Shown here in pieces: positions 34,667 to 57,237 of a DNA stretch of 64,000 nucleotides. Within the stretch, counting starts at the first letter, position 1. Each line of letters opens with the position of its first letter. Made by a program: the position numbers and the translations under genes. This DNA comes from Planctomycetaceae bacterium (GTDB taxonomy: Bacteria > Planctomycetota > Planctomycetia > Planctomycetales > Planctomycetaceae), in the NCBI GenBank assembly GCA_024742875.1, contig JANSXP010000012.1, forward strand, positions 1 through 64,000. Reading direction: 5' to 3'. The notes beneath the pieces were generated by a model. The model was not told where the DNA came from. It worked only from the letters and a program-made list of their open reading frames with translations, and did not search any database.

Positions 34667-34709
34667 GGCAATTTCTGAAACGAAACAAACGGAGAAACGT
34701 TGATAGCAA

Positions 34710-37001: not shown

Positions 37002-38061
37002 TCACGTTTGCATTTTGTGACCAGCGAGACGTCTGGCACAGGACCAGAGCCGCTCGTCGACACTGAGGACAGATGAATTGGTAGTGCTGTTGGTCGGTTG
37101 TCCGGGAGGATTGCTCCGCCATCTCATAACGGTACCCGAGCGTTTGCTGCACGTGCATCAGATCGTCAATCTGTCGCCGATCGGCGAACTCCTGGCCACA
37201 CCTGTGACACGTAACGGCCCCGGAAACAGGATATTCATACTCACAGATCATGTGGGCCAGTTTCAGGCTTCGCTGGGGAATGTGCAGCAGCTTGCTGTAG
37301 GGGAGCCACAGCAGCGTTAGACAGACTACCACCATATGAAAGCCAGCGATCACACTGTGAAATCGCCCGCCCAGAAACGCATAACTGACCGTCAGAAGCA
37401 GCCCGGAAACCGCAATCGACAGTAGAGCGAGTAGTGGCAGAATGTCGTACACGAACGTCTGCACGGCCGCGTCGCCCCGATCCCGCCAGCGGCGCACGAC
37501 GGCGACCGTACATCCCGTCAGTACCGGGATGGCGGCCCACACAAGTGCATGAAACGCGACGAACGCAATCACTCCGTTGACCGGAATGGTGGCGACATGG
37601 ATCCCAAAATTCATCACACGATACGACGACAGGTCCTCAGGCGGAGTTTCAAACCAGACCCAGCCGAACACCAGCGGTACAACGGTCGCCAGGGCCATGA
37701 GACAGCCAACCATGACAGGCCAGTGCGCAGCCCAGCGGTTCCAGCCACGCCGGGCCACAAATCGATTGGCAGCAAAATAGTCCAGACAGCGACGCAGCAG
37801 ATGAGCACACATCCGAAAACGCTGGCGTGACTGCCACACGGCTCGCCCCGCCTGACGATACACCTTCGCCGTGGCCGGACGATGCATCCACACGACCATG
37901 CGATAAACAGTGAGGGCAAGCGACAGAACCAGCGCCTGGGCATAGACGAAAAGCGCGCGGTCAAACTCCAGCAGCACCCAGCCTGTCAGCACCACAGCTC
38001 CCGCCAGCACCGCCGTGGCGACACCAGCCAGTGACGCACGTTGAAAACTGGGATCAGACAT
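36991..38061 (-). CDS. NarI-like membrane subunit, probable quinol-oxidising anchor
   Basis: 356 residues with about six membrane helices ([123 protein letters not shown]). His in [17 protein letters not shown] and LLHIP match the pattern of a di-haem NarI-type cytochrome b. The tail has CHRCG and CPQC, a zinc-ribbon-like pair not found in NarI. It would feed quinol electrons to the nitrate reductase. Start ATG at 38061 follows 98 nt after nirBD on the same strand; the end overlaps the nasA start. Confidence 0.82.
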
Positions 38062-38159
38062 AGGCAGGCGGGGGTTAACGTTGGGTTCGTCGGACAAACG
38101 ATGTGGCCTCAAAAGGGCAATGGATTCGCTGCATGAGCGATTCTGGTTCGTCCAGCACG

Positions 38160-41100
38160 TCAGACTTCCAGAGCTTCTGTTGCAGCCGTTACATCCGTGG
38201 AACAACTGGTCGCCAGTTTACAGCCAATTTCCGTGGCCAGCAGCCGATCGAGCACGTCGGTCGCCGGCAGGTCCAGATACACGCTGCCCTCTTCCACCTT
38301 CACGGGAAACGTACGGATGCTGTAGTCTTCTCCCTGCAGAGACTTGCCGTCTTCGAGACTGAACGTCTTTTTGTGCAGGGGGCACGCGACTTTCGGTGTG
38401 CCAGCCGCATCGCCAATCATACCACGCGACATGACAAACGCTTTGCGGTGCGGACACATATTCTGGGTTGCGTACCACTGCCCCTTCGAAGTGAAGTTGT
38501 AGACGGCAATCTGCACCTTGCCGTACTTGATCGTGCTGCCGCCATCGACAGGAAAGTCATCAACGGTTCCCACCTGCACCCAGCGGGTTTCATCCAGATC
38601 ACTCTTATGATCTGCTTCGATTCGCTCACGCCGGTCTTCCAGGGCGTGGTACTGCCCCAGCGAAACGAACTCACCCGGCCAGTCACCCGGACGATGCTGT
38701 CCCCGCTCGGACACGATTTCAATCGTTGGTTCGGTGTCGTCGGTATTCACGAACTGTCGGAACCACTTGCGACGTTCCGGATCTTCCACCGTGGTCTTCC
38801 ACTCACACTGGTAGGTATCGACCAGGTGCTGCATCATAGCTTCCAGCTCTGTGGCGATGCCCAGCTTGTCTTCGACGACCACCTCTCGAATGTGATCAAT
38901 TCCGCCTTCCAGCTTCTCACACCAGACCGATGTGCGAGTGAGCTTCTCTGCCGACATCAGATAATAAGAGAAAAAGCGATCGATGTAGCGAACCGCCAGA
39001 TCAGCATCGACGTCAGCCACCAGCAGATCGGCGTGTCGGGGTGAGGCCCCCCCGTTACCGCACACATAAACGTTGTAGCCGTTCTCTGTGGCGATCAGAC
39101 CAACATCCTTGCCCTGGGCCTCCGCACATTCCCGCGTGCAGCCGGAGACCGCCATCTTGACCTTGTGCGGCGCCCGAATTCCCTTGTAGCGGTGCTCCAG
39201 GCGAATCGCAAAACCGACCGCATCCTGTACTCCGTATCGACACCAGGTGGTGCCCACGCAGCTTTTGACGGTTCGCAGTGCTTTGCCATAAGCGTGTCCG
39301 CTCTCAAAGCCGGCCGCAATCAGTTCTTCCCAAATCGCTGGCAGATCCTGAACCTGCGCGCCGAACAGATCGACTCGCTGCCCGCCGGTGACCTTTGTGT
39401 AAAGGTCATATTTTTTGGCCACATCGCCCAGAGCAATCAGCTGATCGGGCGTGATTTCGCCACCGGGAACGCGGGGGATGACAGAATAGGTGCCGTTACG
39501 CTGCGTGTTGGCCAGGAAGCGGTCGTTGCTGTCCTGCAGAGTTTGATGCTCAGGCTCCAGAATGTAATCGTTCCACAGTCCCGCCAGAATGGAAGCCACA
39601 GCCGGCTTGCAGACCTCGCAGCCGGTGCCCGTGCCGCATTCTTCCAGCACAGCCGCAAAGCTCTCCAGTTTTTTAGCCTTCACAATGGCGAACAGCTCCG
39701 TGCGGCTGAATGGGAAGTGCTCACACAGGTGATTATTGACTTCCCGCCCCAACGACTTCATCTGAGCGTTGAACAGATCAGTCACCATCGGCGTACAGCC
39801 GCCACAGCCGCTGCCGGCCCTGGTGCACTGTTTGACGGCCGCCGGAGAATCCAGCTCCTGCTCGGTGATGGCCTCGCAGATCTGGCCTTTGGTCACATTG
39901 TTGCATGAGCACACCTGAGCAGAGTCAGGCATTGCCTCGATGCCGCCCAGCGCAGCGGCCGCTCCACCAGACGCCCCGACGATCAACTCATGGGGCGCAC
40001 AGGGCAGGTCATCGCCGGAACGAGCCATAATGCTCAGCGTGCTGTAGTCACCTGCATCTCCCACCATGATCCCGCCCAGCAGCTTCTTTCCGTCCAGGCT
40101 GAACAGCAGCCTCTTATAGACGCCGGCAAACGGATCTTCGAACGTCAGGCTGTTGGCCTCGTCCGGGCCCAGCTCATACTCACCAAAGCTGGCGACATCA
40201 ACGCCCATCAGCTTCAGCTTGGTCGACAGGTCGGTGCCGTGGAAGGTGCGATCGTCACCACAGAAATTGGCCGCCACGATTTCGGCCATGTCCCAGCCGG
40301 GAGCGATCAGACCGTAAACCATGCCACCATGCAGCGCACATTCGCCGATGGCAAAGATATTGGGATCGCTCGTCTGCAGCCGATCGTTGACGAGGATGCC
40401 GCCACGCTCTCCCAGATCCAGACCGGCCTCTTTGGCCAGATCGTCACGCGGGCGAATGCCGGCCGAGACGATGATCATGTCGCAGTCCAGCGACGAACCG
40501 TCGTTGAACTCCATCTGTTCCACTTTGTTTTCGCCGTGGACTTCTTTTGTGGTCTTGTTCAGGTGGACCTGCACCCCCAGATCCTCGATCTTGCTCACGA
40601 GGATCCCCGATCCACTGTCGTCGATCTGCCGGGGCATCAGCCGAGGGGCGAACTCCACGACGTGGGTTTCCAGGTCGAGGTCGTAGGCGGCTTTGGCCGC
40701 TTCCAGTCCCAGCAGACCACCGCCAATCACGGCACAGGTTTTCGACCGTTTGGAGTAATCAATAATGTGCTGCAGGTCTTCGATCGTGCGGTAAACGAAG
40801 ACGCCCCGCTTATTGATGCCCGGGATGGGGGGCACAAACGGGTAAGAGCCGGTGGCCATGATGACTTTGTCATACGCCACCTCAACGCCCTTGCTGGAAG
40901 TGACCACCTGCCTGTCGCGATCGATCTTCGCCGCTCGGTCGCCGACGTGAATCTCAATGCCGACCTGCTCGTACCACTCCATGCGGGCCAGCATCAGCTT
41001 TTCGGCGTCACGGTGTGCGAAAAAGCTGGTCAGCCCGACTCGGTCATAGGCCGCACGAGGCTCCTCACAGAAGGTGACGATCCGATACTGCCGGGTCTCG

Positions 41101-41189
41101 TCGAACGCAACGAGGTTTTCGCAGAAGCGAAGCCCCACCATGCCGTTGCCGATAACCACAATGGTGCGTTTGTCTGTCGAGCTAATCAT
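38160..41189 (-). CDS. nirB: NAD(P)H nitrite reductase, NirB-NirD fusion
   Basis: 1009 residues. FAD/NAD(P)H domains with VVIGNGMVGLRF, CAVIGGGLLGLEAAKAAY and NIFAIGECALHGG; [2Fe-2S] BFD-type clusters in VCSCNNVTKGQICEAI and SGCGGCTPMV, and a second CGTGTGCEVCKP; sirohaem/[4Fe-4S] ligands Cys644, Cys650, Cys684 and Cys688 (SCVGTTWC, SGCTRECAEA). From about 870 a Rieske-type NirD domain with CPHRKAF (Cys912, His914) and CPLHKKTF (Cys936, His939). It reduces nitrite to ammonium in the cytoplasm. NirD is normally a separate small subunit; here it is fused. First gene of the nitrate-reduction operon after the gap at 41190-41716. Confidence 0.95.
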   Translation of the reverse strand: MISSTDKRTIVVIGNGMVGLRFCENLVAFDETRQYRIVTFCEEPRAAYDRVGLTSFFAHRDAEKLMLARMEWYEQVGIEIHVGDRAAKIDRDRQVVTSSKGVEVAYDKVIMATGSYPFVPPIPGINKRGVFVYRTIEDLQHIIDYSKRSKTCAVIGGGLLGLEAAKAAYDLDLETHVVEFAPRLMPRQIDDSGSGILVSKIEDLGVQVHLNKTTKEVHGENKVEQMEFNDGSSLDCDMIIVSAGIRPRDDLAKEAGLDLGERGGILVNDRLQTSDPNIFAIGECALHGGMVYGLIAPGWDMAEIVAANFCGDDRTFHGTDLSTKLKLMGVDVASFGEYELGPDEANSLTFEDPFAGVYKRLLFSLDGKKLLGGIMVGDAGDYSTLSIMARSGDDLPCAPHELIVGASGGAAAALGGIEAMPDSAQVCSCNNVTKGQICEAITEQELDSPAAVKQCTRAGSGCGGCTPMVTDLFNAQMKSLGREVNNHLCEHFPFSRTELFAIVKAKKLESFAAVLEECGTGTGCEVCKPAVASILAGLWNDYILEPEHQTLQDSNDRFLANTQRNGTYSVIPRVPGGEITPDQLIALGDVAKKYDLYTKVTGGQRVDLFGAQVQDLPAIWEELIAAGFESGHAYGKALRTVKSCVGTTWCRYGVQDAVGFAIRLEHRYKGIRAPHKVKMAVSGCTRECAEAQGKDVGLIATENGYNVYVCGNGGASPRHADLLVADVDADLAVRYIDRFFSYYLMSAEKLTRTSVWCEKLEGGIDHIREVVVEDKLGIATELEAMMQHLVDTYQCEWKTTVEDPERRKWFRQFVNTDDTEPTIEIVSERGQHRPGDWPGEFVSLGQYHALEDRRERIEADHKSDLDETRWVQVGTVDDFPVDGGSTIKYGKVQIAVYNFTSKGQWYATQNMCPHRKAFVMSRGMIGDAAGTPKVACPLHKKTFSLEDGKSLQGEDYSIRTFPVKVEEGSVYLDLPATDVLDRLLATEIGCKLATSCSTDVTAATEALEV

Positions 41190-41716
41190 TGTCCTGCCAC
41201 CGATGATGCTGCTATCGCGCTGCTGAAAACTGATGGGCTGCGAATTTGGTGAATCGCAGACCCACGGATTCCCTCCCTGCTGCCCCCGTGCCCCCGGAGC
41301 TTAAGCCGGGTACGGGCCATCAGGTGTGCCATCCACCCGCCCCGCCACAGGCGTGCCGGCACGTCAGAGGCAGAAACGCAAGTGCTGTACCAATTGGGCA
41401 GAGGACACCAACAAGCCTCTGTTTCCCGGCGTCAATCGAGGGAGATACCAGGACGCGGCGACAAGGCACGTGGAAAACAACGGTGCAGAACCCCATTTGG
41501 CTGCGCAGATGCGCAAGAACGCGGCAGTTCTGTCATTTTGATTGCATATCCTGTGCGCACACGGTGCCTGGCCCCATTCCATCGCTCGGCTTTTCGGCAG
41601 AGGCCGGATTTCGGCCGCGCGCACGAAAAAAGGCAGCCCCGCGATTGCGGAGCTGCCAGGTTTCTTCCATCGAATGGCGGTCTGATTTGACCGGAGCATT
41701 CGTGAGCGTGGTTTTC
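41190..41716. promoter_or_regulatory. Gap between the porin and nirBD genes, with a terminator and palindromes
   Basis: About 530 bases. The porin terminator is at 41626-41657. Left of it must be the nirBD promoter (minus strand). A perfect palindrome CGTGCCGGCACG at 41352-41363 is a possible operator; no protein frame is supported. Confidence 0.4.
41626..41657 (-). terminator. Rho-independent terminator of the porin gene
   Basis: Read on the minus strand, an 11-bp stem with one G-T pair (GGCAGCTCCGC/GCGGGGCTGCC) and an AATC loop, followed by a run of six T. It lies 59 nt after the porin stop codon. Confidence 0.85.
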
Positions 41717-43186
41717 TTAGAACTTCCAGGTGGTCTGCAGATAGAACTGGCGAGCGTCATTCGGGCGAGCCGCCAGAGCGTCACCGTAGAAGAACCAGAA
41801 GTATCCAGCCTGCACGTTGAAGTTTTTGGTCACCGGGATGGTGGCGACGATATCGATCTCGTCACCGATGTCGCCGGAACCGTTGGGAGCACCGATGGGA
41901 GCACCCACAATGTTGTAGATGTTGTCCGCGTCGTCCGCTTTTTCAAAGTGGTGATAAGAAAGAGCAACGGTCAACTTCTTGTGAGGCTTGATGCTTCCGG
42001 TCAGACCGATGTCATGCATGTTCTGGCCGCTGAAGTTATCGATCAGGCCCCAGTAAGCGTGGCCCAGTGGATACAGCGTGAAGAACGTATTGATGTCACC
42101 GTTGTTCGGATCACCACCGGAACTCCAGTAGTAGAAGCCTTTGATGCCTGGGCTCCATGGCAGCTGGTTGAACGTGTACCCCAGTGTGGCGTTGGTCATG
42201 CCGGCACTGACGTCCCGTGTGGTACCACCAAAGTTGTCACGCCCGAACTGATAAGCACCTTCCAGGTCCCAGGCCCAGGTTCCGACAACTTTGTCACATT
42301 CCTTCACAGCTTTGGAGCCGGCCAGTCGCATACCCAGCGTGTGACGTGAGCCGTCGTGGCGAGCCACAGACGCGTTGTCCTCGTCAAAGTAGAGCCAGTA
42401 CAGGTCCAGAGCCGAGTTTTCCAGACCCTTGTAAGTCGAGTACACACCAGAGATGCGTCTATCGTTGTCTGGAGAGTTCAGCTTGTTGGTGTTGAATCCG
42501 GAACCACCGGCCGCACCATTCACGCTGGCCATGTGAAAGCCGTCAATATTCCAGTCGGTACCGGAATACAGAACCTTGTGGCCTTCGAAGTTGCGGTAGG
42601 TGTTGGACCAGGCCAGAGGCGACAGCAAACGCTGACCACCGTATTTCAGGAACTGGCGACCGTAGCGATACTTCAGTGAGTAGTCTTTTTCGCTCAGCAG
42701 CGTCAGTTCACCGTAGTATCGCAGGAAATCCCAGCGATCCACGTCGATGGGCACGCGAGCATACGGAGCGTCGCCTTCCTGCCAGGCCGAGGCATCAATG
42801 CCTTCCACATAGGCACGCACACGATCATTGACCTTCAGGTCCAGAAACGTCGTCATACGCCACAGGGAGTATTCCGCGTTTCCGCCGGGCGGCCGAAGAC
42901 GGTTGTCTTCGTTCATAAATCGGTGACGGATTTCTCCACCGATCGTGTAAGTCATACCACCGAGCTGCTGGCCTTTCAGACCAGAAAAGATGGTGTCGTC
43001 GCCCGCGAGGTTGTTGAACAGCACGTGCGGATCGAAGCTGAGGCAGCTGTCATTTGAATCACAGCCTTCCCCACAGGTGGGGACACAATCCTGGGCCTGC
43101 ACGGCAGGCGAAAGTCCACTGGTTAGCACTGCGGTCAGGGACAGTCCCGCAAGAACCTTCCACAACGGTAAGCGGTTCATTTTCAT
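41717..43186 (-). CDS. Outer-membrane porin-like barrel (alginate-export family type)
   Basis: 489 residues. Signal peptide at about 1-32 (MKMNRLPLWKVLAGLSLTAVLTSGLSPAVQA) and then a Cys-containing linker (CVPTCGEGCDSNDSC) before the barrel. Strands alternate with aromatic girdle residues: YTIGGEIRHRFMNEDN, LWRMTTFLDLKVNDRVRAYVEG, LKYRYGRQFLKYGGQRLL, WDLEGAYQFGRDNF, and a C-terminal FYLQTTWKF ending in Phe, as usual for barrels. It resembles the alginate-export/AlgE-like barrel family. Its position between nirBD and the nitrate genes suggests a role in nitrate or nitrite passage, but it could equally carry an organic acid. Confidence 0.85.
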   Translation of the reverse strand: MKMNRLPLWKVLAGLSLTAVLTSGLSPAVQAQDCVPTCGEGCDSNDSCLSFDPHVLFNNLAGDDTIFSGLKGQQLGGMTYTIGGEIRHRFMNEDNRLRPPGGNAEYSLWRMTTFLDLKVNDRVRAYVEGIDASAWQEGDAPYARVPIDVDRWDFLRYYGELTLLSEKDYSLKYRYGRQFLKYGGQRLLSPLAWSNTYRNFEGHKVLYSGTDWNIDGFHMASVNGAAGGSGFNTNKLNSPDNDRRISGVYSTYKGLENSALDLYWLYFDEDNASVARHDGSRHTLGMRLAGSKAVKECDKVVGTWAWDLEGAYQFGRDNFGGTTRDVSAGMTNATLGYTFNQLPWSPGIKGFYYWSSGGDPNNGDINTFFTLYPLGHAYWGLIDNFSGQNMHDIGLTGSIKPHKKLTVALSYHHFEKADDADNIYNIVGAPIGAPNGSGDIGDEIDIVATIPVTKNFNVQAGYFWFFYGDALAARPNDARQFYLQTTWKF

Positions 43187-43789: not shown

Positions 43790-45814
43790 ATGTTCTCGTT
43801 GAGCGTCTTTGCACAACAACCACACGCAGAAACCGGTGACGCCACAAGTGACAGCACGGCGTCCGATGCCCCCTGTGAGTCCATAGTGGTGGTGGGCAAC
43901 GGGCCGGTCGGCTTTCGCTTTCTTCGTGACATGGTGGACCGCCAGCCTCGAACGCGACGAGAGATCACGGTTTTTGGTGAGGAGCCACTGCCAGCCTATG
44001 ACCGCGTCAATCTGACAAAATACCTGGACTCGCAGAGTGCGGATGCGCTGCAGTACGAGCCACGCAGCTGGTACGAGTCCCATGGCGTCGCGCTGCACAC
44101 CAACGACCCGGTGATCAACATTGATCGAACAACGCAGCAGGTCACGGCAGCCTCAGGTCGCGTGGTTCGCTACGACCGTCTGGTGCTGGCGACGGGCAGC
44201 CGAGCCTTCATTCCCCCCATTCCGGGAACCGATCTGGACGGGGTCTTCGCCTATCGCACGATCGACGACCTGGAGCGGATCCGGGACGCCGCCAGGGGTG
44301 GCCGGCGTGCGGTGGTTTTAGGAGGTGGGCTGCTCGGACTGGAAGCAGCCGACGCACTGAAGCGACTGGGGCTGCAGGTGTTCGTGGTGGAAATGGCGCC
44401 GGTGCTGATGCCGCGACAGCTGGACAACGAAGGGGCTGACCTGCTGCGGCGGATGGTTGAAACCCAGCAGATTCGCATCCTCACACAGCGACAGACCCAG
44501 AAGATCACACAGATTGAAGAAGGCCTCCACGTTCAGTTTTCCAATGGCGAGTCGGTGGTGGCCGACCTGGTCGTGGTGGCAGCCGGCATTCGGCCGAGGG
44601 ATGAGCTGGCCCGCGACTGCGAACTGGAACTGGGAGAGCGCGGCGGAATTGTTGTCGATGACGGCCTGAAGACGTCCGACTCATGTATCTACGCTGTGGG
44701 AGAATGTGCGGTTCATAACGGCACGATTTACGGACTTGCGGCCCCCGGATTCCGCATGGCCACGACACTTGTCGATCGCCTGCGCGGCATAGAAGCCGCG
44801 TTTTCCGGCAGCAACGAAGCCACTCGACTCAAACTCATCGGCACCAACGTCGTCTTCAGTGGTGACTATCTGGACCTGACACGGGCCACCACGCTGGCTC
44901 ACGAAACGGCGGACGCCTACACCAAGCTGATCATCCGTCGCGGGCGACTGGTCGGCATGATTGGGGTGGGCCAGGTCCAGCAGCAGGATCGACTGCAGGA
45001 GGCCATCGACCAGAAACGGCGGGTGTTCCTCTGGCAAACACGACGGTTTCAGAAAAGTGGGCGACTGTGGTCGTCTGATGCAGGGATCGGCGTCGCCGCA
45101 TGGCCCGCTCAGACGATGATCTGCAGTTGCAACAACATTACCCGCGGTGATCTGACGGTGGCCACGGAACGAGGGTGCCTGACCGTGGAATCTCTGGCCG
45201 CCAGTACGGGCGCCACCACGTCCTGCGGCTCCTGCCTGCCACTGGTCCAGCAGTTTTGCGGACAGACTCGCGTCACCTCGAAAAGTTCCCGCGCGGACAC
45301 GCTGGTCGCTGCGATTTCTGGCGTCGCTTTCGTGCTGCTGGGATTCTTAATTTTTGCCCAGCCGGTGGTGCTGCCCACCACGGTCCAGACCGCCGTCACA
45401 CTTTGGCAGACACTGCTGCAGGATTTTTTCTGGAAACAGGTCACCGGGTACTCGCTCACCGCGCTGACTCTCACCTCGTTATTGATCACGGTGCGGAAAC
45501 GCACCCGCATGTTCAGAAACGTCCGCTACGCCTCCATGCGAGTTGTGCATGTGGCCATGGCGACTGCCGCACTGGCTGTTCTGATCGCGCACACCGGATT
45601 TCATCGCGGCAGCAATCTGAATCTGGCGCTTTTCTCTGTGTTCATTGCCGCCTCACTCAGTGGCTCCGTCGTTGGCCTGCTGGCAGGCCTGGAACAGCGG
45701 CTGCCCGTACGGCTGCGCGGGCTCCGGCGGCCGATGACGCTGTGGCACATCCTGCTGCTGTGGCCGCTGCCGCTGCTGATCATTTTTCACGTTGTCTCCG
45801 TTTATTACCTCTAG
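43790..45814 (+). CDS. NirB-like FAD/[2Fe-2S] flavoprotein fused to a membrane cytochrome b domain
   Basis: 674 residues. Residues 31-400 are the FAD and NAD(P)H domains of NirB (VVVGNGPVGFRFL, AVVLGGGLLGLEAADAL, CIYAVGECAVHNG); residues 445-482 hold a BFD-type [2Fe-2S] site with CSCNN and SCGSC. The sirohaem half of NirB is absent; instead residues 505-674 form five membrane helices with His587 (VVHVA), His601/605 (AHTGFH), His653 (LWHIL) and His667 (FHVVS), enough for two b haems. Unlike NirB it therefore could pass electrons from NAD(P)H across the membrane rather than to nitrite. Start uncertain (ATG 43790, TTG 43799). First gene of a four-gene unit. Confidence 0.88.
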   Translation: MFSLSVFAQQPHAETGDATSDSTASDAPCESIVVVGNGPVGFRFLRDMVDRQPRTRREITVFGEEPLPAYDRVNLTKYLDSQSADALQYEPRSWYESHGVALHTNDPVINIDRTTQQVTAASGRVVRYDRLVLATGSRAFIPPIPGTDLDGVFAYRTIDDLERIRDAARGGRRAVVLGGGLLGLEAADALKRLGLQVFVVEMAPVLMPRQLDNEGADLLRRMVETQQIRILTQRQTQKITQIEEGLHVQFSNGESVVADLVVVAAGIRPRDELARDCELELGERGGIVVDDGLKTSDSCIYAVGECAVHNGTIYGLAAPGFRMATTLVDRLRGIEAAFSGSNEATRLKLIGTNVVFSGDYLDLTRATTLAHETADAYTKLIIRRGRLVGMIGVGQVQQQDRLQEAIDQKRRVFLWQTRRFQKSGRLWSSDAGIGVAAWPAQTMICSCNNITRGDLTVATERGCLTVESLAASTGATTSCGSCLPLVQQFCGQTRVTSKSSRADTLVAAISGVAFVLLGFLIFAQPVVLPTTVQTAVTLWQTLLQDFFWKQVTGYSLTALTLTSLLITVRKRTRMFRNVRYASMRVVHVAMATAALAVLIAHTGFHRGSNLNLALFSVFIAASLSGSVVGLLAGLEQRLPVRLRGLRRPMTLWHILLLWPLPLLIIFHVVSVYYL

Positions 45815-45850
45815 CTGAAATGTGGCCCGTGCGGCCACAGGCTCAACACT

Positions 45851-47185
45851 GTGACTCGGCTTCTCTGGATTTCCTGGTTTGTTCTGACGATCGCTGGCGC
45901 GACCACGCTGTTTATTGCGCTGCCGGGAGACTCCACCGCCAGCAGCCTGTCGACCGTCTTTCTGCCGGGACAGACAACACACGGACACCATCAAATTGAA
46001 ATGAAGTGTGCGGCCTGCCACCTGCCTGACGGCGGCGTGACGGATCAATCCTGCATTGACTGTCATGGGGGCGAACTGAAGCTGTCCCGTGACACGCATC
46101 CCGCGTCCAAATTCCACGACCCAACCAAAGCACCGCTGCTATTGAAAATTGACGCACAGAACTGCCTGAGCTGTCACGTGGAACACGAAGAGGAACTGAC
46201 CCACCCCATGGGAGTGACGGTTCCGGAAGACTACTGTTATCACTGCCATGAGGATGTCGCCAAAGACCGCCCCAGCCACGCAGGCCTGGCTTTCAATTCG
46301 TGCGCCAACGCCGGCTGCCACAATTATCATGACAACCGCGCGCTGTACGAGAACTTTCTCCGCAAGCACGCGGGTGAAGCCAACGTGCTGGATGAACCAC
46401 GCAATCCACTTCGCCGCGTGCAGCAGTGGCTGGCTTCTGCCCCGGCCTCGTCCCGCTCACCTCTGACCGCGGAACAGTCGAACGCTCCGGCCGAACACAC
46501 AACTGCCGAACTGACGGCAGCCTGGGCAGACAGTGCTCACGCCGCTGCCGCCGTCAACTGCAGCGGCTGCCACAACGCAGACAAAAATTCTTCAGCAGGC
46601 GACTCATGGGTTGCGGTGCCCGACCATCAAAGCTGTGCGGGCTGTCACGACGGTCAGGTGGACAGTTTCCTGGTGGGTCGACATGGCATGCGACTGGCCG
46701 CCGGTCTTTCGCCGATGACTCCCGAACTGGCGCGGCTGCCGATGCACGGCGATGCGGCACACCGCCAGCTCGATTGCTCGGCGTGCCACGACCCCCATCA
46801 GCCTGACATGGCCCTGGCGGCGTTTGACGCATGCATTTCCTGTCACGACGACTCACACAGTCGCAGTTATGCAGATTCCAGCCACCACACCCTCTGGCAG
46901 CAGGAGCTAAGCGGGCAGGGGGCCCCTGGCAGCGGCGTGTCGTGCGCGACGTGCCACATGCCGCGTGACGAAGACGGACACGTTCAGCACAACCAGAACG
47001 ACAATCTGCGACCAGCGGAAAAAATGGCCCGCACCGTGTGCATGAATTGCCACGGGCTGCAGTTCACACTGGATGCGCTCGCCGATCCACAGCTGAAAGA
47101 CAACTGTTACTCAGGCCCTGCCACCATGAAAGTGAGAAGTCTGGACATGGTGAAGGACTGGTTCGAATCCAGAAAACGAAGGTGA
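45851..47185 (+). CDS. Eleven-haem cytochrome c, membrane-anchored
   Basis: 444 residues. One N-terminal helix (about 4-24, LLWISWFVLTIAGATTLFIAL) with no clear cleavage site, so probably an anchor. Ten CxxCH motifs and one CxxxxCH (CANAGCH, residues 151-157) predict up to eleven c haems: CAACH, CIDCH, CLSCH, CYHCH, CANAGCH, CSGCH, CAGCH, CSACH, CISCH, CATCH and CMNCH. Extra His and Met are available as sixth ligands. The first third is like cytochrome c3/NapC-type units; the rest has a freer spacing. The GTG at 45851 follows the fusion gene by 36 nt, so the two are an operon: the membrane cytochrome b could hand electrons to this protein. Confidence 0.9.
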   Translation: MTRLLWISWFVLTIAGATTLFIALPGDSTASSLSTVFLPGQTTHGHHQIEMKCAACHLPDGGVTDQSCIDCHGGELKLSRDTHPASKFHDPTKAPLLLKIDAQNCLSCHVEHEEELTHPMGVTVPEDYCYHCHEDVAKDRPSHAGLAFNSCANAGCHNYHDNRALYENFLRKHAGEANVLDEPRNPLRRVQQWLASAPASSRSPLTAEQSNAPAEHTTAELTAAWADSAHAAAAVNCSGCHNADKNSSAGDSWVAVPDHQSCAGCHDGQVDSFLVGRHGMRLAAGLSPMTPELARLPMHGDAAHRQLDCSACHDPHQPDMALAAFDACISCHDDSHSRSYADSSHHTLWQQELSGQGAPGSGVSCATCHMPRDEDGHVQHNQNDNLRPAEKMARTVCMNCHGLQFTLDALADPQLKDNCYSGPATMKVRSLDMVKDWFESRKRR

Positions 47186-47314
47186 CCCGCATGTGCGCTT
47201 CGCTCTCAATTGATCTGTTCCCGGAAGGCGTGGCGGCTCTGATCTTCGGACCACCCGCCACGTCTTCCTCCTGAAATTTCCCATTTCCCGTCTTATCTGA
47301 TCCCGGAGAATCCC

Positions 47315-47926
47315 ATGAAACGGCTCAACACAAACATGGCCATGGTCGCACTCGCTGCAATGGTCCTGTCCACATTCAGCGGCTGCAGTCGCAGCGAAGC
47401 AGAAGCCCCTGCGGCCACGTCAAGCGGCGGTATCTCACCGCAGAAGTTTGCGGATGCGGTCCACGCTGTGATGATGGCAGACCGCACGGTCTACGCCAAA
47501 CAGGTCGTCACCCGCCTGAAAAAGCAGGATGCTCCCGTCAGCCCCAGCGAATACTGGCAGGACGAAGATCACACCATCCCGCTGCCCGCGCAGATGTTCC
47601 GCATGGGCGCCGAAATCGTCAACGAGGACCCCACAGCCGGCTTCACCTACTCCCTCACGTCACAGTGGCCCCTGAATCCACAGCATCAGGCCAAGGGTGT
47701 GGAAGTCGAAGGACTCAAGTTCCTCGCCGAAAACCCGGGCGAAAACTTCTACTCGGAAGAAGAAATCGCCGGCAAGAAATACTTCACCGCGCTGTATGCG
47801 GACAAGGCTGTCGCGGAAGCCTGCTGGACGTGTCACAACGAACATGCAAATCGCGGTGCGGACTACCCGGAATTTAAGGAAGGCGACGTCATGGGCGGCG
47901 TCGTTGTCCGACTGCCAATCGACTAA
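47315..47926 (+). CDS. Single-haem c-type lipoprotein (Tll0287/DUF3365-like)
   Basis: 203 residues. Lipoprotein signal with Cys24 (LSTFSGC). After a low-complexity linker the folded part begins about ISPQKFADAVHAVMMADRTVYAKQVV and contains YSEEEIAGKKYFTALYADKAVAEACWTCHNEH with one CxxCH haem site (Cys170). The layout suits the Tll0287-like/DUF3365 domain, which binds haem c and is seen as a possible redox or gas sensor. Its gene is 129 nt after the multihaem gene and 96 nt before the globin, and it is probably part of the same unit. Confidence 0.8.
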   Translation: MKRLNTNMAMVALAAMVLSTFSGCSRSEAEAPAATSSGGISPQKFADAVHAVMMADRTVYAKQVVTRLKKQDAPVSPSEYWQDEDHTIPLPAQMFRMGAEIVNEDPTAGFTYSLTSQWPLNPQHQAKGVEVEGLKFLAENPGENFYSEEEIAGKKYFTALYADKAVAEACWTCHNEHANRGADYPEFKEGDVMGGVVVRLPID

Positions 47927-48022
47927 CGAGCGTGCCGGATCTGCATGCCGACTCGCCAATCAGCTCCCCGGGGCGACAGCAGACTGACGTCCCTTTCTTT
48001 TTCCCACCTGGAATCTTTCGAC

Positions 48023-48442
48023 ATGGTTACACCTGAAGATGTTTCACTGGTCCAGTCCTCCTGGGCTAAAGTTGCCCCCATCAGCGATACGGCCGCCGAC
48101 CTGTTTTACGGCAAACTGTTTGAACTGGATCCGTCACTGCAGGAACTGTTTCCTGAAGACATGACCGAACAGAAGAAGAAGCTCATGCAGACACTGGCGG
48201 TCTGCGTCAATGGCCTCTCTGATCTGGGAGAGATCGTGCCGGCCGTCAAGGCCCTGGGGCAGCGTCACGTCGGTTACAAAGTGAAGGACGAACACTATGA
48301 GACCGTCGGTACAGCGTTGCTGTGGACACTGGGCCAGGGACTGGGGGATGAGTTCACTGCAGAAACGGAAAAAGCCTGGACGGGCGTATACACCGTTCTG
48401 GCGACAACGATGAAAGAAGCGGCCGCTGAAGTCCCCGTATAG
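48023..48442 (+). CDS. Single-domain globin (Vitreoscilla-haemoglobin type)
   Basis: 139 residues, a classic 3/3 globin: TPEDVSLVQSSWAKVAPISDTAADLFYGKLFELDPSLQELFP, with Phe43 as CD1, and VKALGQRHVGYKV with His82 as the proximal haem ligand. It has no reductase domain, unlike flavohaemoglobin. Such globins bind oxygen and can act in NO dioxygenation with a partner reductase; the adjacent NAD(P)H flavoprotein could in principle supply electrons. ATG at 48023 chosen because the A helix starts there; a longer open frame from 47945 has no homology. Confidence 0.93.
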   Translation: MVTPEDVSLVQSSWAKVAPISDTAADLFYGKLFELDPSLQELFPEDMTEQKKKLMQTLAVCVNGLSDLGEIVPAVKALGQRHVGYKVKDEHYETVGTALLWTLGQGLGDEFTAETEKAWTGVYTVLATTMKEAAAEVPV

Positions 48443-48946: not shown

Positions 48947-50578
48947 TTAATTGGCCAGCACAGACACAGCCACCACTTTGCCACTGACAACTGTCGGGAT
49001 GGCAATTCCAAAACTGGGCGGTGCAGTGCTGGGGCTGTGCACGATCCGGTGTGCGGTGCCATTGTCGGCCACAATGGGCAGTCCGGTCATCAGACACTCG
49101 TATGCAATGCTGTCCGCAGCCGGCATGGCCTTGCTCATCTGCGCCGTCAGCGACGGCACACCATCCACGTTCTCCGCCGCCAGTTGCAGCCCGGAAGGAG
49201 TCACTTTCCACAATTGCAGCATAGAGAAAACGGGATTGGCCTCTGAATTGAACAGCTGAAAGACGTCGCTGGTGACGCTGCCGGAATCGGTCAGTGGGAG
49301 ACTCACACCGGACAGCAGCTGCTCTGACGCCAGTGCCAGCCCGCGAACGGCATTGCCATCGTCCGCAAAACGCGAGCCAACGTAGGGCCGCGCCTGCTCG
49401 GCCGCCACACCAGCCAGTCCCTGCCCGACGGGCAGATGGACAAACTCACTGAGCCGACGCAGTTTCTCGCAGTTGATGTACGTGCCGTTGACCAGTCGCA
49501 ATGCGTCCGTCGCAGGATCGACCCGCCACGACTCGAAAGCCGCCTTCATTTGATGCCGACTGTCGAGCAGAATCAGAATCACGGCCTGCACGCGTTCTTT
49601 GCTGAACACAGGAAAGCCGACAGCGGTTGTCATCCCGACCGCGCCTGCTGCCCCGCTGCGCACGAAATCACTGGTGATAATCTCATCCAGAAACGCGGGT
49701 GCGCGGCGTTCCCAAACCGCCCCCGGCAAACCTTCGCCGCGCCGAAACGTCACGCCTTTGGTGGCTTCCTGAAAGGCGGCCGCATCGCGATAGCAGCTTT
49801 GTGACAGCTGCAGCACCGACTCATCCTCAGCCGGCGTCCAGACTTCAATCCCCTTCACGCACTGCCGGGCTTCTGAAAGATTAGAGTTCCGCAGGTTGCC
49901 CGCCGTGAACCCCTGATCGTAATACCGGGCCGTCACAGCCAGTGCGACCAGTTCGGCCACCGATTCCACGCCCACTTTCTTCATCAGGCGAAATCGTCGA
50001 TCCTCAACCGCACGCACGGTGATTCCCAGAATGCCGGCAATCTCTTTGTTCTTTTTGCCCTCCATGATCAGCACGAGGACTTCCAGTTCCTTTTCGGTCG
50101 CCTCTGCCATTCGCAGCGAAGCTTCCCGGCAGGAGTCGATTGTGGCCTGGTTGCTTACGCTCGATTCGACAGCGTTGGTCATTGTACTGACCAGCTTCTG
50201 ATGCTCAAACGGGCGGGTAAGCACAGAAAACACGCCCTGCCGCATCAGGTCGACCGCATTTTCTGCGGAGTTGGACTCCATCAGCACAATGACGGGCAGC
50301 GTGTAGAAGTGAGACTGAATACGACTGATGGACGCCAGGCTGTGGCCCTCTCCCTCCGCCACCAGCAGGACACATCCCTGAGACGACGGAGCCGCACTCT
50401 CCAGCAAACTGTCCACCGTGGGGTATTGACGGAATCCGAAGCCCGAAACCTCAGCAGCATCCAGCACCGGGATGGTTGATTCTGGCGGCAGAGAGACTGC
50501 GTGAATGGTCGCGGTCGACGGGATATCTGACTCTGGCTGGAAATTCATAAGACGTAATGTCGTGTTTGATTTCATCAT
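48947..50578 (-). CDS. Pseudo-receiver/LuxR regulator with two GAF domains
   Basis: 543 residues. Residues 24-137 resemble a response-regulator receiver, but the phosphoacceptor site reads CVLLVAEGEGHS instead of an Asp-containing loop, and the usual acidic pocket is missing; the C-terminal TRPF has Arg in place of Lys. Residues 160-215 are a LuxR/FixJ-type helix-turn-helix (TEKELEVLVLIMEGKKNKEIAGILGITVRAVEDRRFRLMKK). Two GAF-like domains follow (about 240-390 and 400-540), with RRGEGLPGAVWER and VGQGLAGVAAEQ, the Gly-rich loop found in phosphotransferase-type GAF sets. It is likely to sense a small molecule and control the nrt genes directly. Start ATG at 50578 or 50575. Confidence 0.82.
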   Translation of the reverse strand: MMKSNTTLRLMNFQPESDIPSTATIHAVSLPPESTIPVLDAAEVSGFGFRQYPTVDSLLESAAPSSQGCVLLVAEGEGHSLASISRIQSHFYTLPVIVLMESNSAENAVDLMRQGVFSVLTRPFEHQKLVSTMTNAVESSVSNQATIDSCREASLRMAEATEKELEVLVLIMEGKKNKEIAGILGITVRAVEDRRFRLMKKVGVESVAELVALAVTARYYDQGFTAGNLRNSNLSEARQCVKGIEVWTPAEDESVLQLSQSCYRDAAAFQEATKGVTFRRGEGLPGAVWERRAPAFLDEIITSDFVRSGAAGAVGMTTAVGFPVFSKERVQAVILILLDSRHQMKAAFESWRVDPATDALRLVNGTYINCEKLRRLSEFVHLPVGQGLAGVAAEQARPYVGSRFADDGNAVRGLALASEQLLSGVSLPLTDSGSVTSDVFQLFNSEANPVFSMLQLWKVTPSGLQLAAENVDGVPSLTAQMSKAMPAADSIAYECLMTGLPIVADNGTAHRIVHSPSTAPPSFGIAIPTVVSGKVVAVSVLAN

Positions 50579-50771
50579 GGGCTGTTGAATGTTTCGCAAC
50601 ACAGAACGAAGTGATCCGGTCGTCTTCAACAAGTCTGTTCCCTGTTTTGAACGACAACGAGGCCAGGACCCTCGGTGGGCCCGTCATTGAGGTTAGTCAG
50701 CCCCGTCGGTTCATGACTCAACGCGGCGTAATGCCCGCACTCCCTGAGGCAGGCGCTGGGCAGTTCGATTT

Positions 50772-51719
50772 CTAAAACATCATGTTCAGCACGTTACAAA
50801 GTTCGTTTTGCCGATAGATGGGCAGCGACAGACTGAATGTGGCGCCCGCTGGCAGCGACAGACTGTCGGCCCCCAGCAGCAGCGGCTGACCATGGCTGTT
50901 CACACGACTGAGAATTTCGCGCTGCCAGCCGGCGAGTGTTGTCGTCATGGATCCTCCCACTGTGTCCACGCTGTCCACCGCCGCCGTCATGCTCCCCTCG
51001 TCATCCCGCGTGCTGGAGCAGGACCAGAGTTCGGTCAGTCCGGCCAGCGGAATATCCTGAGCAGAAAGCAGCAGCAGCACCGAAGCCGGGAAGCCCCGCT
51101 GACTGGCGACTGGCAGTCCGAGGGCCGAAGTGATGACCGCAGGATCCTTACCAAACGATCGAATGAAGCCGGAGCTGGTGTCGAGGTTTTGCGCCAGCTG
51201 TGCCACTCCCAGCTTCCAGACCATGCCGGGCAGACCGGCCCCTTTGGGAAAGCGAGTGTAGCGTGTAATGAACTCAAACGATGGCAGGCCCTGGTAATGT
51301 CCGCTGGTCACCGCCAGTTCGTCCCGGTCGTCGCGGCTCCAGACTTCAATCGCCCCAAACGCGTCGCTCAGCCCCAGCACCACGACGCCCCGCATTTCCT
51401 GCTGACAGAAAAGTGGAATGGCCACAAAGGCGCTCAGATCTCCAGCCGGAGCTGCGGCCGCCGCGTTCAGAGAGGCCATCAGATCTGACGGCGTTTCCTG
51501 AAGAATGGTGGCCGTCTTCTGCTTCCACGCTGCACCAGCCAGCCCTTCACCGCTGCTGACCGAACGTCCGTCGGCCCCACGCACCCCCGCGCCCACCGAG
51601 GCGCTCGCCCGACATTCCAGTGAAGACTCATCTTCGGAGAGCAGCCACAGTTCGACGTACTGCACCAGCGAGCCGACAGTCGGCTGAAAGGTTTCCGCGG
51701 AAGACTCTGTTGACGACAT
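50772..51719 (-). CDS. GAF-domain protein, partner of the nrt regulator
   Basis: 315 residues with two GAF-like domains: GEGLAGAAWKQKTATILQETPSDL in the first and KGAGLPGMVWKLGVAQLAQNLDTSSGF in the second, with the same Gly-x-Gly-Leu-Pro/Ala-Gly loop as in the neighbouring regulator, and no helix-turn-helix, kinase or output domain. It probably works with the regulator 193 nt downstream, perhaps by heterodimer formation or as a ligand sink. Start ATG at 51719 follows nrtD by 65 nt. The ligand is unknown; nitrate, nitrite or nitrogen-status metabolites are reasonable guesses from context. Confidence 0.78.
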   Translation of the reverse strand: MSSTESSAETFQPTVGSLVQYVELWLLSEDESSLECRASASVGAGVRGADGRSVSSGEGLAGAAWKQKTATILQETPSDLMASLNAAAAAPAGDLSAFVAIPLFCQQEMRGVVVLGLSDAFGAIEVWSRDDRDELAVTSGHYQGLPSFEFITRYTRFPKGAGLPGMVWKLGVAQLAQNLDTSSGFIRSFGKDPAVITSALGLPVASQRGFPASVLLLLSAQDIPLAGLTELWSCSSTRDDEGSMTAAVDSVDTVGGSMTTTLAGWQREILSRVNSHGQPLLLGADSLSLPAGATFSLSLPIYRQNELCNVLNMMF

Positions 51720-51784
51720 GATCACCTTGTTTTCCTTTGAACGGGGTCCGCTGTTGAGGGCGGACAGGCGTGCTGCGGCCGACC

Positions 51785-52675
51785 TCAGACCGACGCCGGC
51801 TCGGTTTCCAGCTGGCGGTCGGACGCGGATGTCTGCAGTTCACGTTCCTGCCGCTGCCGCTCTTCGAACGCTTCCACATGAGAGCTCTTGTTATGTTCCT
51901 GCTTCTCCAGGAAGGACAGCAGACACGCGCGAAAATCGTAGTAGTTGGGATGGTCGAGCACGTCCGCCCGAATTCGAGGCCGTTCGAACGGAATCTCCAG
52001 CACCTGGCCCACACTCGCTTCCGGGCCGTTGGTCATCATGCAGACGCGGTCCGCCATGTAGATGGCTTCATCCACGTCATGTGTGATCACAACGGTCGTG
52101 ATCTTTTCGCGATCCAGAATCTCCAGAATGACATCCTGAAGATCCATGCGGGTCAGCGAGTCCAGCCGGCCAAATGGCTCATCGAGCAGCAGCATGCGTG
52201 GTCGCAGGGCAATGGCGCGGGCGATGCCCACTCGCTGCTGCATTCCGCCTGACATTTCCCTGGGATACTTCCGCATGGAATCGGCCAGTCCCACGATGCT
52301 CAGATAGTATTCGCAGATCTGACGTCGCTCCGCCGGCGTGCCGTGCGGATAAACCTGCTTGACTCCCAGCATGACATTCTCAAACGTGGTCATCCATGGC
52401 AGCAGGCACGGTGCCTGAAACACGACCGCTCGGTCAGGCCCCGGGCCGGCAACTTCCCGCCCGTCAACCACCAGCGAGCCGGATGAAATGGGATTCAAAC
52501 CGGCCAGCATCGTCAGCACGGTGGACTTGCCGCAGCCGGAATGGCCGATCACGGACACCACTTCCCCCTTGCGGAGGATCAGATTGAAGTCTTTGACGAC
52601 CGCCACGTCCTGACCAAAAGGGTTGGGGTACGCCTTGGTCAAATTGGCAATTTCAACGTATCGATTGTCACTCAT
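51785..52675 (-). CDS. nrtD: Nitrate ABC transporter ATPase NrtD
   Basis: 296 residues. ABC ATPase with [13 protein letters not shown] (Walker A), [19 protein letters not shown] (signature), [16 protein letters not shown] (Walker B and D loop) and [11 protein letters not shown] (H loop). After the ATPase core the C-terminus has a long charged tail (residues about 250-296). With the other ATPase, NrtC, it powers nitrate import. The ATG at 52675 agrees with the family start; the open frame extends only to a GTG 9 nt upstream. Confidence 0.93.
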
Positions 52676-52740
52676 GATTGTCACTCATCTTCGGCAGCCG
52701 GAGTCCATTCCGTCGCACTGTGCGTCTGTCAGGGCGCGAA

Positions 52741-53592
52741 TCAGACGGCGGTAAAGTCGTAGGGAGTTAGTTCGGGCAATGACACGTCAACCGCCTTGCG
52801 GAGCATCTTGGCTTCCTGATTGATGTCCACCATGTAGCGTGTCACTTTGTTTCGCAGCTCTTTGAACTGGGGATTGAAGTTCAGCGTGGTGCGATCGCGG
52901 GGGCGGTCAAGGGTGACGGGGAACGACTCCCCCAGCGTGGCTTCCGGACCGGGCGTCAGCGCGACGATGCGATCCGCCATCAACACGGCTTCATCCACAT
53001 CGTTGGTGATCATCACGACCGTCCGCTTGTCTTCTTCCCAGATGCGAATGATCTCGTCCTGCAGGTTGGCGCGGGTCAGCGCATCCAGGGCGCTGAGTGG
53101 TTCATCCAGCAGCAGCACTTCCGGACGCATGGAAAGCGTTCGCGCGAGCGAAAGCCGCTGCCGCATGCCGCCCGACAGTTCGCCCGGGCGTTTCCATTCC
53201 GAGCCGGACAGCGAAACCATATCAATGTATCGCTGCACATGGGCACGACGATCGGCTTTGGTCATTTCCGGAAAGACCTGCCGGACAGCCAGTTCCACAT
53301 TGCCAAAGACGCTCAGCCAGGGCAACAGCGAGTAGTTTTGAAACAGAATGCCACGTTCCGGCCCGGGCTCGGTGACCACCTGGCCGTTCATGCGGACCTC
53401 ACCGCAGTCCGCCGGCTGCAGACCGGCCAGCAGGTTCATCAGCGTGGATTTTCCACTGCCGGAAAAGCCTATGATGGCCACAAATTCATTGGCTTCGACC
53501 TTGAGCCGCACGTCCTTCAGGACTTCCGTGCGAGAACCTTCCGGTCCAAATCCCACATCAACTTTGTCAATTTCCAGTGCTGGCAATGCCAT
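52741..53592 (-). CDS. nrtC: Nitrate ABC transporter ATPase NrtC
   Basis: 283 residues. [17 protein letters not shown] (Walker A), [19 protein letters not shown] (signature), [16 protein letters not shown] (Walker B) and [14 protein letters not shown] (the usual His of ITHDVDEA is Asn here). Unlike cyanobacterial NrtC it has no C-terminal NrtA-like regulatory domain, so nitrate control must come from elsewhere, possibly the GAF proteins. Start ATG at 53592, with GGGGAG upstream on the minus strand; the longer open frame lacks family similarity. Confidence 0.92.
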
Positions 53593-53682
53593 TTTTGTTT
53601 CTCCCCTGCCTCTGGCGAATCGCGATCCTGTGTCTTGTGGCCGTCCGCCGGGACGCAGGCTGCTGACAACTTCCAAGATCCG

Positions 53683-55311
<1,629 letters not shown>

Positions 55312-55439
55312 GCTTCTGTCGCTTTTCTGCACTTAGCCGAGAAAACGACGAGATGAGTCGCCCAGGCAACCCATCCCGTCGTCACACGGAAACGATTCAG
55401 ACGATCAGCGCTCCGGCCTGATCGCCGGCCATCGGCCAA

Positions 55440-56939: not shown

Positions 56940-57237
56940 CGCAAACTCCAGTAGAAAGGGGTTGATCGAGATCAGGCTCGCCTGAATGCTCAGCACAGAC
57001 TTTGGCAAAACGCGTGCCGTTCGATCTGTTTTGCCCGTTTCAACTGACCAGGCCCGCTTCTCCCGAAGCACTCGCCACTCTGCTGTGGCAAACCACGCCG
57101 GAAATGCAAATACTGTTGCTTACCCCACGTGCAATTCGCGCAGTGTTGTTGCAGGCATGCCTGCAAAGTGAGCGGATTCACGCCTCAGGCACATGTATGG
57201 CTGAAATCCGAGGCCGCGATTGGAACTCAGGACGTTG
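56940..57237. promoter_or_regulatory. Upstream region of nrtA
   Basis: About 300 bases between nrtA and the 3' end of the dehydrogenase gene on the same strand. It contains the perfect 18-bp palindrome at 57149-57166 and should carry the nrt promoter. No coding frame supported. Confidence 0.5.
57149..57166. promoter_or_regulatory. Perfect 18-bp palindrome, candidate nrt operator
   Basis: TTGCAGGCATGCCTGCAA is its own reverse complement. It lies about 210 nt before the nrtA start in a non-coding gap. A dimeric regulator such as the LuxR-type protein at 48947 would be expected to bind such a site, but this is not shown by the sequence. Confidence 0.45.

Follow-up and report, generated by a model that had tools for sequence, protein, structure and literature searches.

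Gene content and conservation of the cassette

The DNA analysed here, referred to below as the window, is a stretch of 64,000 nucleotides (nt) from a member of the Planctomycetaceae (contig JANSXP010000012.1, forward strand). It contains a set of four genes, A, B, C and D (the cassette), which encode a flavoprotein fused to a cytochrome b, an 11-haem cytochrome c, a haem lipoprotein and a globin (Table 1). An earlier, sequence-only reading had described them as four same-strand genes with gaps of 36, 129 and 96 nt, all with redox cofactors and all lying between genes for nitrite/nitrate reductase and genes for nitrate uptake. The open reading frame (ORF) map bears out the strand (+) and the gaps, and domain matches agree with the rest: A has flavin, [2Fe-2S] and cytochrome b parts, B is a multihaem cytochrome c, C has the haem domain PF11845 and D is a globin, with the reductase genes on the left and the nrt genes on the right. 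The genes on either side of the cassette are on the minus strand, and two GAF-type proteins separate it from the nrt genes.

Gene order was compared across planctomycete and other genomes, as the sequence-only reading had proposed. The loci used were the best 80 of 439 stretches with B relatives in the GTDB species collection, a choice that favours close relatives. They come from six phyla (Planctomycetota, Pseudomonadota, Verrucomicrobiota, Myxococcota, Poribacteria and Dadabacteria) and include some near-copies (L123/L125, L113/L115 and L095/L117); six genomes are counted both as a locus and under a genome handle (L065/G468, L082/G591, L086/G220, L087/G421, L126/G494 and L130/G057). A cytochrome b part of A adjoins B in all 80 loci, and a C relative is also present in all 80, cut by a contig end in three. 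The gene order is A-B-C in 74 loci, with C upstream in the other 6, and overlaps of 1 or 4 nt occur between some cassette genes. D occurs in 59 loci, upstream of A in 7 of them. The 21 loci that lack D comprise three that end right after C and 18 that run at least 3.8 kb further. Homologues lying apart would speak against a functional set; in the recovered loci this was not seen for the membrane part of A, for B or for C, while D is missing from those 18 loci.

The same pattern emerges from whole genomes. With a B profile at 1e-25, matches were found in 7 of 392 genomes of the phylum and 12 of 248 genomes of the class. A profile of the membrane domain of A, used at 1e-5, matches 36 of the 392 phylum genomes, seven of them with at least 189.7 bits; these are the same seven that have B, and the best of the 29 further genomes scores 41.5 bits. 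These searches gave 14 neighbourhoods outside the window, and A adjoins B in all 14 (in G494 as two overlapping ORFs). Among the matches listed for 199 genomes of the phylum, full-length A relatives occur in G121 and G057, each with B beside A, followed by C and D; in G057 a small cytochrome lies between C and D. Chance neighbourhood is ruled out by the adjacency of A and B in 80 of 80 loci and by their presence in the same seven of 392 genomes, and the A-B-C-D grouping is not due to chance. Wholesale recent transfer is unsupported as well, since the tree of B needs 8 changes to account for 6 groups (minimum 5), compared with 36.6 when shuffled.

Flanking genes were also scanned. The 107 ORFs used, out of 258, were a manual selection that drew almost entirely on loci outside the planctomycetes and left out most of the nitrate genes found before; some of the 107 may be false ORFs. 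Among the families listed (25 of 79 from Pfam and 25 of 148 from NCBIfam), the commonest are Rrf2/NsrR-like regulators, kinases and Alginate_exp porins, with 3 each, and NarK occurs in 2.

Table 1. Positions in the window of the cassette genes, their main features and the flanking genes. FAD, flavin adenine dinucleotide; NAD(P)H, reduced nicotinamide adenine dinucleotide (phosphate); HAO, hydroxylamine oxidoreductase; ABC, ATP-binding cassette.
Feature	Position	Strand	Details
Gene A, NirB-type FAD/NAD(P)H reductase + BFD [2Fe-2S] + five-helix cytochrome b	43790..45814	+	674 residues; domain matches
A residues 31-311, FAD/NAD(P)H domain (Pyr_redox_2)	43880..44722	+	E 4.9e-57
A residues 443-488, BFD-type [2Fe-2S] site, Cys 445/447/479/482	45116..45253	+	Cys conserved
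A residues 501-673, five membrane helices	45290..45808	+	helices in model, His conservation, loop charges
Gene B, anchored 11-haem cytochrome c	45851..47185	+	GTG start, 444 residues
B N-terminal membrane anchor, residues 3-23	45857..45919	+	helix 3-23 in model
Fifth haem site of B, CX4CH	46301..46321	+	four residues between Cys in 80/81, two in one
B six-haem C-terminal domain, residues 225-402	46523..47056	+	distantly like octahaem nitrite reductase/HAO
Gene C, mono-haem sCache_heme (PF11845) lipoprotein	47315..47926	+	203 residues; PF11845 E 1.9e-20
CXXCH of gene C	47822-47836	+	motif
Gene D, cytosolic single-domain globin	48023..48442	+	139 residues; start corrected from 47945, where a longer ORF opens, to the conserved start
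Context left of cassette: 4Fe-4S protein, NasA-type nitrate reductase, membrane protein, NirB-NirD fusion, porin	34031..43186	-	domain matches
Context right of cassette: LuxR/GAF protein, GAF protein, nrt ABC transporter genes	48947..57071	-	domain matches
NrtA	55440-57071	-	within the nrt ABC transporter genes right of the cassette

Cofactor sites and domains of the proteins

Pfam finds Pyr_redox_2, Rubredoxin_C and Fer2_BFD domains in A. The best NCBIfam match is NirB (TIGR02374), with 492.1 bits against a cut-off of 578.35; residues 32-497 of A align with positions 1-472 of the 794 in that profile, and a domain scan gave no match in A to NIR_SIR, the sirohaem/4Fe-4S half. Structure models were built from 35 A and 40 B sequences. 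The A model has a mean predicted local distance difference test score (pLDDT) of 88.6, and its FAD/NAD(P)H domain can be superposed on 1xhc with a VIA Z of 38.7 and a root-mean-square deviation (rmsd) of 2.4 over 345 aligned residues. Conservation in A was assessed with the 69 of 81 proteins that are 600-760 residues long. All four Cys of the BFD site are invariant in these 69, as are His 587, 601, 653 and 667 in the membrane part. The His form pairs 14 residues apart on two helices of the model (580-602 and 646-673); we propose His 587/601 and 653/667 as the ligands of two b haems, so that the cytochrome b part is probably di-haem. Such spacing is typical of di-haem cytochromes b with two stacked haems. 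Loops 2-3 and 4-5 between the helices are positively charged on average and loop 1-2 is not, which would place the flavin half on the cytosolic side.

Weak family matches were obtained with the membrane domain of A. PF01794, the ferric reductase/NADPH oxidase transmembrane family, gives a weak match in 1 of 14 domains (E 0.41), further weak matches are to DUF4405 (best 0.0054) and cytochrome b561 (best 0.013), and the sequence profile of the domain finds no solved chain at E 5. The A ORF has at least 600 residues in 71 of the 80 loci. Among the nine with a shorter ORF, three start at a contig end (L101, L114 and L142), two have A split across two ORFs (L126 and L143), two contain just the membrane half (L112 and L132) and two are slightly short (L109 and L110). 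Division of A into two ORFs at L061 (10735-12863) and L126, and at L143 (824-2889), could reflect mutation or sequencing error. In three Polyangium loci (L108, L111 and L119) the ORF is instead 1252-1297 residues long, and the ORF of L108 has a stretch of several hundred residues, rich in Ser and Pro, between its [2Fe-2S] and membrane parts.

That B is an 11-haem cytochrome, as first read, is confirmed: it has ten CXXCH motifs and one CX4CH, and each of the 81 aligned B proteins has the full set of 11 sites. The N-terminus is hydrophobic in 78 of the 81. Eleven further His (46, 83, 112, 143, 160, 230, 278, 316, 336, 345 and 380) are invariant in a set of 15 and conserved at 99-100% in the 81, and a twelfth, His173, is conserved at 96%. 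The match between eleven extra His and eleven haems makes bis-His ligation of each haem the simplest reading, as in a conduit, and suggests that all B haems are six-coordinate.

The C-terminal domain of B has distant relatives among known enzymes. A profile of 40 B proteins matches octahaem nitrite reductases (best 8.3e-11) in several short pieces that follow in order, and the CXXCH at residues 328-332, whose Cys and His are kept in 81 of 81 proteins, aligns with the CXXCK of the octahaem enzyme. CXXCK binds the catalytic haem in octahaem nitrite reductase and in most NrfA proteins. The B model has a mean pLDDT of 73.9, with a poor N-terminal half; its best Foldseek match is 4qo5 (E 0.0096). 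Superposition of the C-terminal domain gave a VIA Z of 7.3 with 4n4j (rmsd 5.2, 200 aligned), in a middling range that is common, and of 6.9 with 4qo5 (rmsd 4.5, 209 aligned), likewise middling. The domain is probably a distant, remodelled member of the octahaem nitrite reductase/HAO superfamily. A search of plasmids with B gave no match at 1e-20.

C matches PF11845 (Tll0287-like) with 74.2 bits against a cut-off of 24.1, and its CXXCH is kept in 98% of 81 relatives. A strict lipobox-like motif is present in 50 of the 81 C proteins; ten other N-termini were inspected and are mostly near-lipoboxes or plain signal starts. Besides the CXXCH, no invariant Cys was found in 20 aligned C proteins, and a C profile found no solved chain at 0.01. 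In D, Tyr29, Gln50 and His82 occur in 60 of 60 proteins; we take these pocket residues to be at helix positions B10, E7 and F8. No signal-like N-terminus was found in the 60, and the nearest solved chains are the haemoglobin-like 3wfw and 3s1i. G057 has a second, more distant globin (26% to D; L037, 1343-1753) some 6 kb away from D. A further component, a small mono-haem class-I cytochrome c (E), is found by similarity in 20 of the 80 loci.

Link with nitrate assimilation and loss of the cassette

The link with nitrate genes seen in the window holds elsewhere, in NrtA content, in the position of NrtA near A and in ANTAR regulators near cassettes. NrtA at 1e-120 or better is present in 28 of 248 genomes of the class; all 12 cassette genomes are among them, compared with 16 of the 236 others (Fisher 3.5e-13, uncorrected for relatedness). 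For a broader comparison we used 46 host genomes: 15 came from the genome searches and the others contain 31 of the 80 loci. NrtA reaches 1e-70 or better in 42 of these, and 19 of the 42 have it no further than 20 kb from A, against 0.31 expected (again uncorrected for relatedness), with linked cases in both Planctomycetota and Pseudomonadota. Cultured hosts with copies linked to nitrate genes include Alcanivorax nanhaiticus, Roseiconus nitratireducens and a Rhodopirellula strain. Some loci without relatives of nrtA, nrtC, nirB or nasA carry NirA, CysJ-like, NasT-like or NasS-like genes. All ten NasT-like genes that were selected near cassettes prove to be ANTAR regulators; the ANTAR domain comes from a domain search, and the gene names NasT and NasS are presumed. 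In L106 the cassette, as A-B-C-E-D, follows an ANTAR gene, nrtA, an ORF at the expected nrtB position and nrtC, in that order. Four Verrucomicrobia loci have NsrR-like Rrf2 genes flanking the cassette.

Hosts generally have a nitrite reductase of their own. NirB scores over its cut-off in 24 of the 46 genomes and NirA in 22, with at least one of the two in 43, which rules out the cassette as a substitute for nitrite reductase; PF01077, which also marks sulphite reductases, is present in all 46. Replacement of flavohaemoglobin by the cassette is a trend only (p 0.18).

Family f106 contains both intact and reduced forms of the locus. In G537 (L058) the genes run on the same strand from an iron-sulphur (FeS) subunit, a molybdenum reductase, NirA and a CysJ-like gene to A, B, C, E and D, and then a porin; the molybdenum reductase of this family is presumed to be a nitrate reductase and scores under the NCBIfam cut-offs. 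In G450 (L157) the nrtA, FeS subunit, molybdenum reductase, NirA and CysJ-like genes are kept, and D and the porin are intact. An ORF of 117 residues there matches about the first 100 residues of A with up to 47% identity, the C-terminal half of C and pieces of E remain, and no trace of B was found in the locus. These remnants, which lie between the CysJ-like and D genes of the nas operon (L157, 13945-15961), indicate that A-B was lost in G450 and D kept; the idea that A-B is a late addition to the nas operon was dropped for this genome. With other likely donors beside its nitrate and nitrite reductases, electrons from A would not be needed for them. In G573 (L158) these reductase genes are again present, with D after them, and A, B and C gave no match there at 1e-4.

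Several neighbouring genes deserve a brief description. NirB and NirD of the window are fused as a single protein of 1009 residues (38160-41189), and between this gene and NasA lies a membrane protein of 404 residues with a Cys-rich tail (36991-38205) and no clear family. A relative of the latter (36%) is found near a NasA relative (60%) in L122, and the protein may be a membrane partner of the NasA-type nitrate reductase. The genes presumed to be nrtB and nrtD were assigned by position. GAF-domain proteins adjoin nrt genes in several planctomycete loci (window 48947-51725; L056, L057, L059, L157 and L158) and may be nitrate-linked regulators. A promoter scan of the window cluster found 0 matches against 0.9 expected, and terminator matches numbered 7 compared with 4.6 in shuffled sequence.

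Proposed function and comparison with known systems

In the route that we propose, NAD(P)H would reduce the FAD of A, and electrons would pass from there through [2Fe-2S] and two stacked b haems to the 11 haems of B in the periplasm, and onward to C and, in some species, E. The sequence-only reading had proposed the same order as far as the periplasmic multihaem protein, and the anatomy supports it: the conserved Cys and His, the loop charges and the co-occurrence of A and B. From this anatomy we infer electron export, including the direction of the electrons and the topology; C and E would pass the electrons to a presumed acceptor. D would be a cytosolic globin that most likely removes nitric oxide (NO) by dioxygenation, and the flavin half of A may re-reduce it. 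The module as a whole would most likely serve as protection from NO and from related by-products that arise when nitrate and nitrite are reduced. The NsrR-like regulators beside the four Verrucomicrobia cassettes, together with the Flp-Bjgb precedent discussed below, point to NO protection. We give about even credence to this reading as a whole, in which A-B-C is an inner-membrane electron exporter and an accessory to nitrate assimilation, most likely for NO protection, with D removing NO.

Several observations weigh against it. D is missing from the 18 loci with room for it, and a relative of nrtA, nrtC, nirB or nasA was found by local thresholds in only 24 of the 80 loci. Three Polyangium genomes have A-B-C without NrtA at 1e-70, NirB over its cut-off or NirA. 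The NsrR-like matches score 122.6-141.9 bits, under the cut-off of 182, and RirA is nearly as good in two of the four. The cassette does not go with a significantly lower frequency of flavohaemoglobin (1 of 12 compared with 6 of 16). In two Dadabacteria loci, L112 (2182-2790) and L132 (8448-8981), the membrane half of A stands alone beside B with no adjoining flavin half, and the donor in these two may be something other than NAD(P)H. The sequence-only reading had also seen C as a possible handler of NO; this is weakened by an assayed stand-alone sCache_heme protein, described in PMC12889525 as binding NO weakly and thought to have a redox role. Finally, assimilatory reductases of Sinorhizobium meliloti are described as contributing to NO only indirectly (PMC6616083).

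In one alternative, A-B-C would itself reduce NO, nitrite or hydroxylamine in the periplasm, at a catalytic site in the C-terminal domain of B. The ordered alignment of this domain with octahaem nitrite reductase, the resemblance of its model to HAO-type proteins and the presence of two invariant Met outside the haem motifs (Met289 and Met298) would fit a catalytic site. However, B has CXXCH where the octahaem enzyme has CXXCK, its sequence from that haem to the next ones in the alignment is much shorter, and the eleven nearly invariant His, with His173 as a less strict twelfth, suggest that every haem is six-coordinate; the Foldseek E value and the VIA Z values are also modest. We consider such a reductase unlikely. 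Slightly less probable again is its fuller form, a transmembrane enzyme powered by NAD(P)H in which the B domain, with the help of C, reduces NO (or nitrite/hydroxylamine) in the periplasm while D clears cytosolic NO; if it is true, bacteria from several phyla that assimilate nitrate protect themselves on both faces of the inner membrane.

Other alternatives concern the destination of the electrons. A could feed a cytoplasmic nitrate reductase or NirA, as Flp feeds NasC, with B and C secondary. A is indeed a NirB-type NAD(P)H reductase in nas clusters, and growth of Bradyrhizobium on nitrate is described as requiring Flp (PMC4724949), but the planctomycete clusters examined encode an FeS/DmsC-type subunit and a CysJ-like protein, which are likely donors too, the membrane domain of A comes with B, and 16 of the 28 NrtA genomes of the class lack B; two NrtA genomes without B or intact A keep nrtA, the FeS subunit, the molybdenum reductase, NirA and the CysJ-like gene. 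A role as donor seems improbable. So does the disposal of surplus NAD(P)H, or the supply of periplasmic cytochrome c pools (for example, for oxidases), with no NO link and D as a passenger: the constancy of A-B-C and variability of D, the retention of D where B was lost and the Polyangium genomes with A-B-C and without the nitrate genes tested would suit this role, and the association with NrtA genomes in the class and with nas-type regulators argues against it. Least probable is an extracellular conduit to minerals or electrodes. A multihaem periplasmic protein is present, and an Alginate_exp-type porin is nearby in the window and in 7 of the 80 loci, as well as in L058 and L060. However, the porin also stays with the operon that lost B (L157), and there is no second multihaem protein among the clusters seen in at least 4 of 92 loci, the rest of the genomes not having been searched.

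Under the NO-protection reading, the cassette would provide a concrete gene set for NO control in nitrate assimilation in Planctomycetota, Verrucomicrobiota and Pseudomonadota. A route that took electrons directly from NAD(P)H to an 11-haem protein in the periplasm, bypassing quinones, would be unusual wiring, here tied to an assimilatory pathway. The cassette also ties together families that the profile libraries searched know only by domain, and A shows how a NirB-type half can join a membrane cytochrome. The individual domains are known; the A fusion and the A-B-C(-E)-D set are, to judge from the open-access literature searched, undescribed among transmembrane electron-transfer systems, and no name for either was found there.

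Each component can be compared with a known system. The Uet undecahaem complex of Tenderiales and Gallionella has an 11-haem cytochrome, like B, but its published description (PMC10734462, PMC5371394) lists a porin, tri-haem cytochromes and NHL proteins; compared by that description, it differs in that no second multihaem protein recurs around B. With octahaem nitrite reductase, HAO and NrfA, the C-terminal domain of B shares the ordered piecewise alignment and the model resemblance; unlike octahaem nitrite reductase, B has CXXCH in place of CXXCK, an additional five-haem N-terminal part with the CX4CH site, and a membrane anchor. C shares with the sCache_heme/Tll0287-like proteins the family match with its CXXCH and the stand-alone form, as described in PMC12889525. 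The Cys/His ligation of Tll0287 is not kept throughout the C relatives, given the lack of a second invariant Cys, and an axial Cys is not family-defining. A shares the FAD, NAD(P)H and BFD [2Fe-2S] half of NirB, with 40% identity to the NirB of the window over residues 26-489. Unlike NirB, it has a cytochrome b instead of the sirohaem/4Fe-4S half, and it falls below the family cut-off.

The closest known system is Flp-Bjgb of Bradyrhizobium, in which Flp and the globin Bjgb of the nitrate cluster are described as detoxifying NO made by NasC (PMC4724949). Like the cassette, the NarK-Bjgb-Flp-NasC genes described there combine a single-domain globin and an FAD/NAD(P)H reductase among genes for nitrate uptake and assimilatory reductases; D, a single-domain globin between nir/nas and nrt genes, matches this feature. 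The Bradyrhizobium genes are under NasT control according to the same source, and ANTAR regulators lie near several copies of the cassette. Unlike Flp, which that source describes as cytoplasmic, A has five predicted membrane helices and a fused cytochrome b, and it is paired with an 11-haem protein and a haem lipoprotein.

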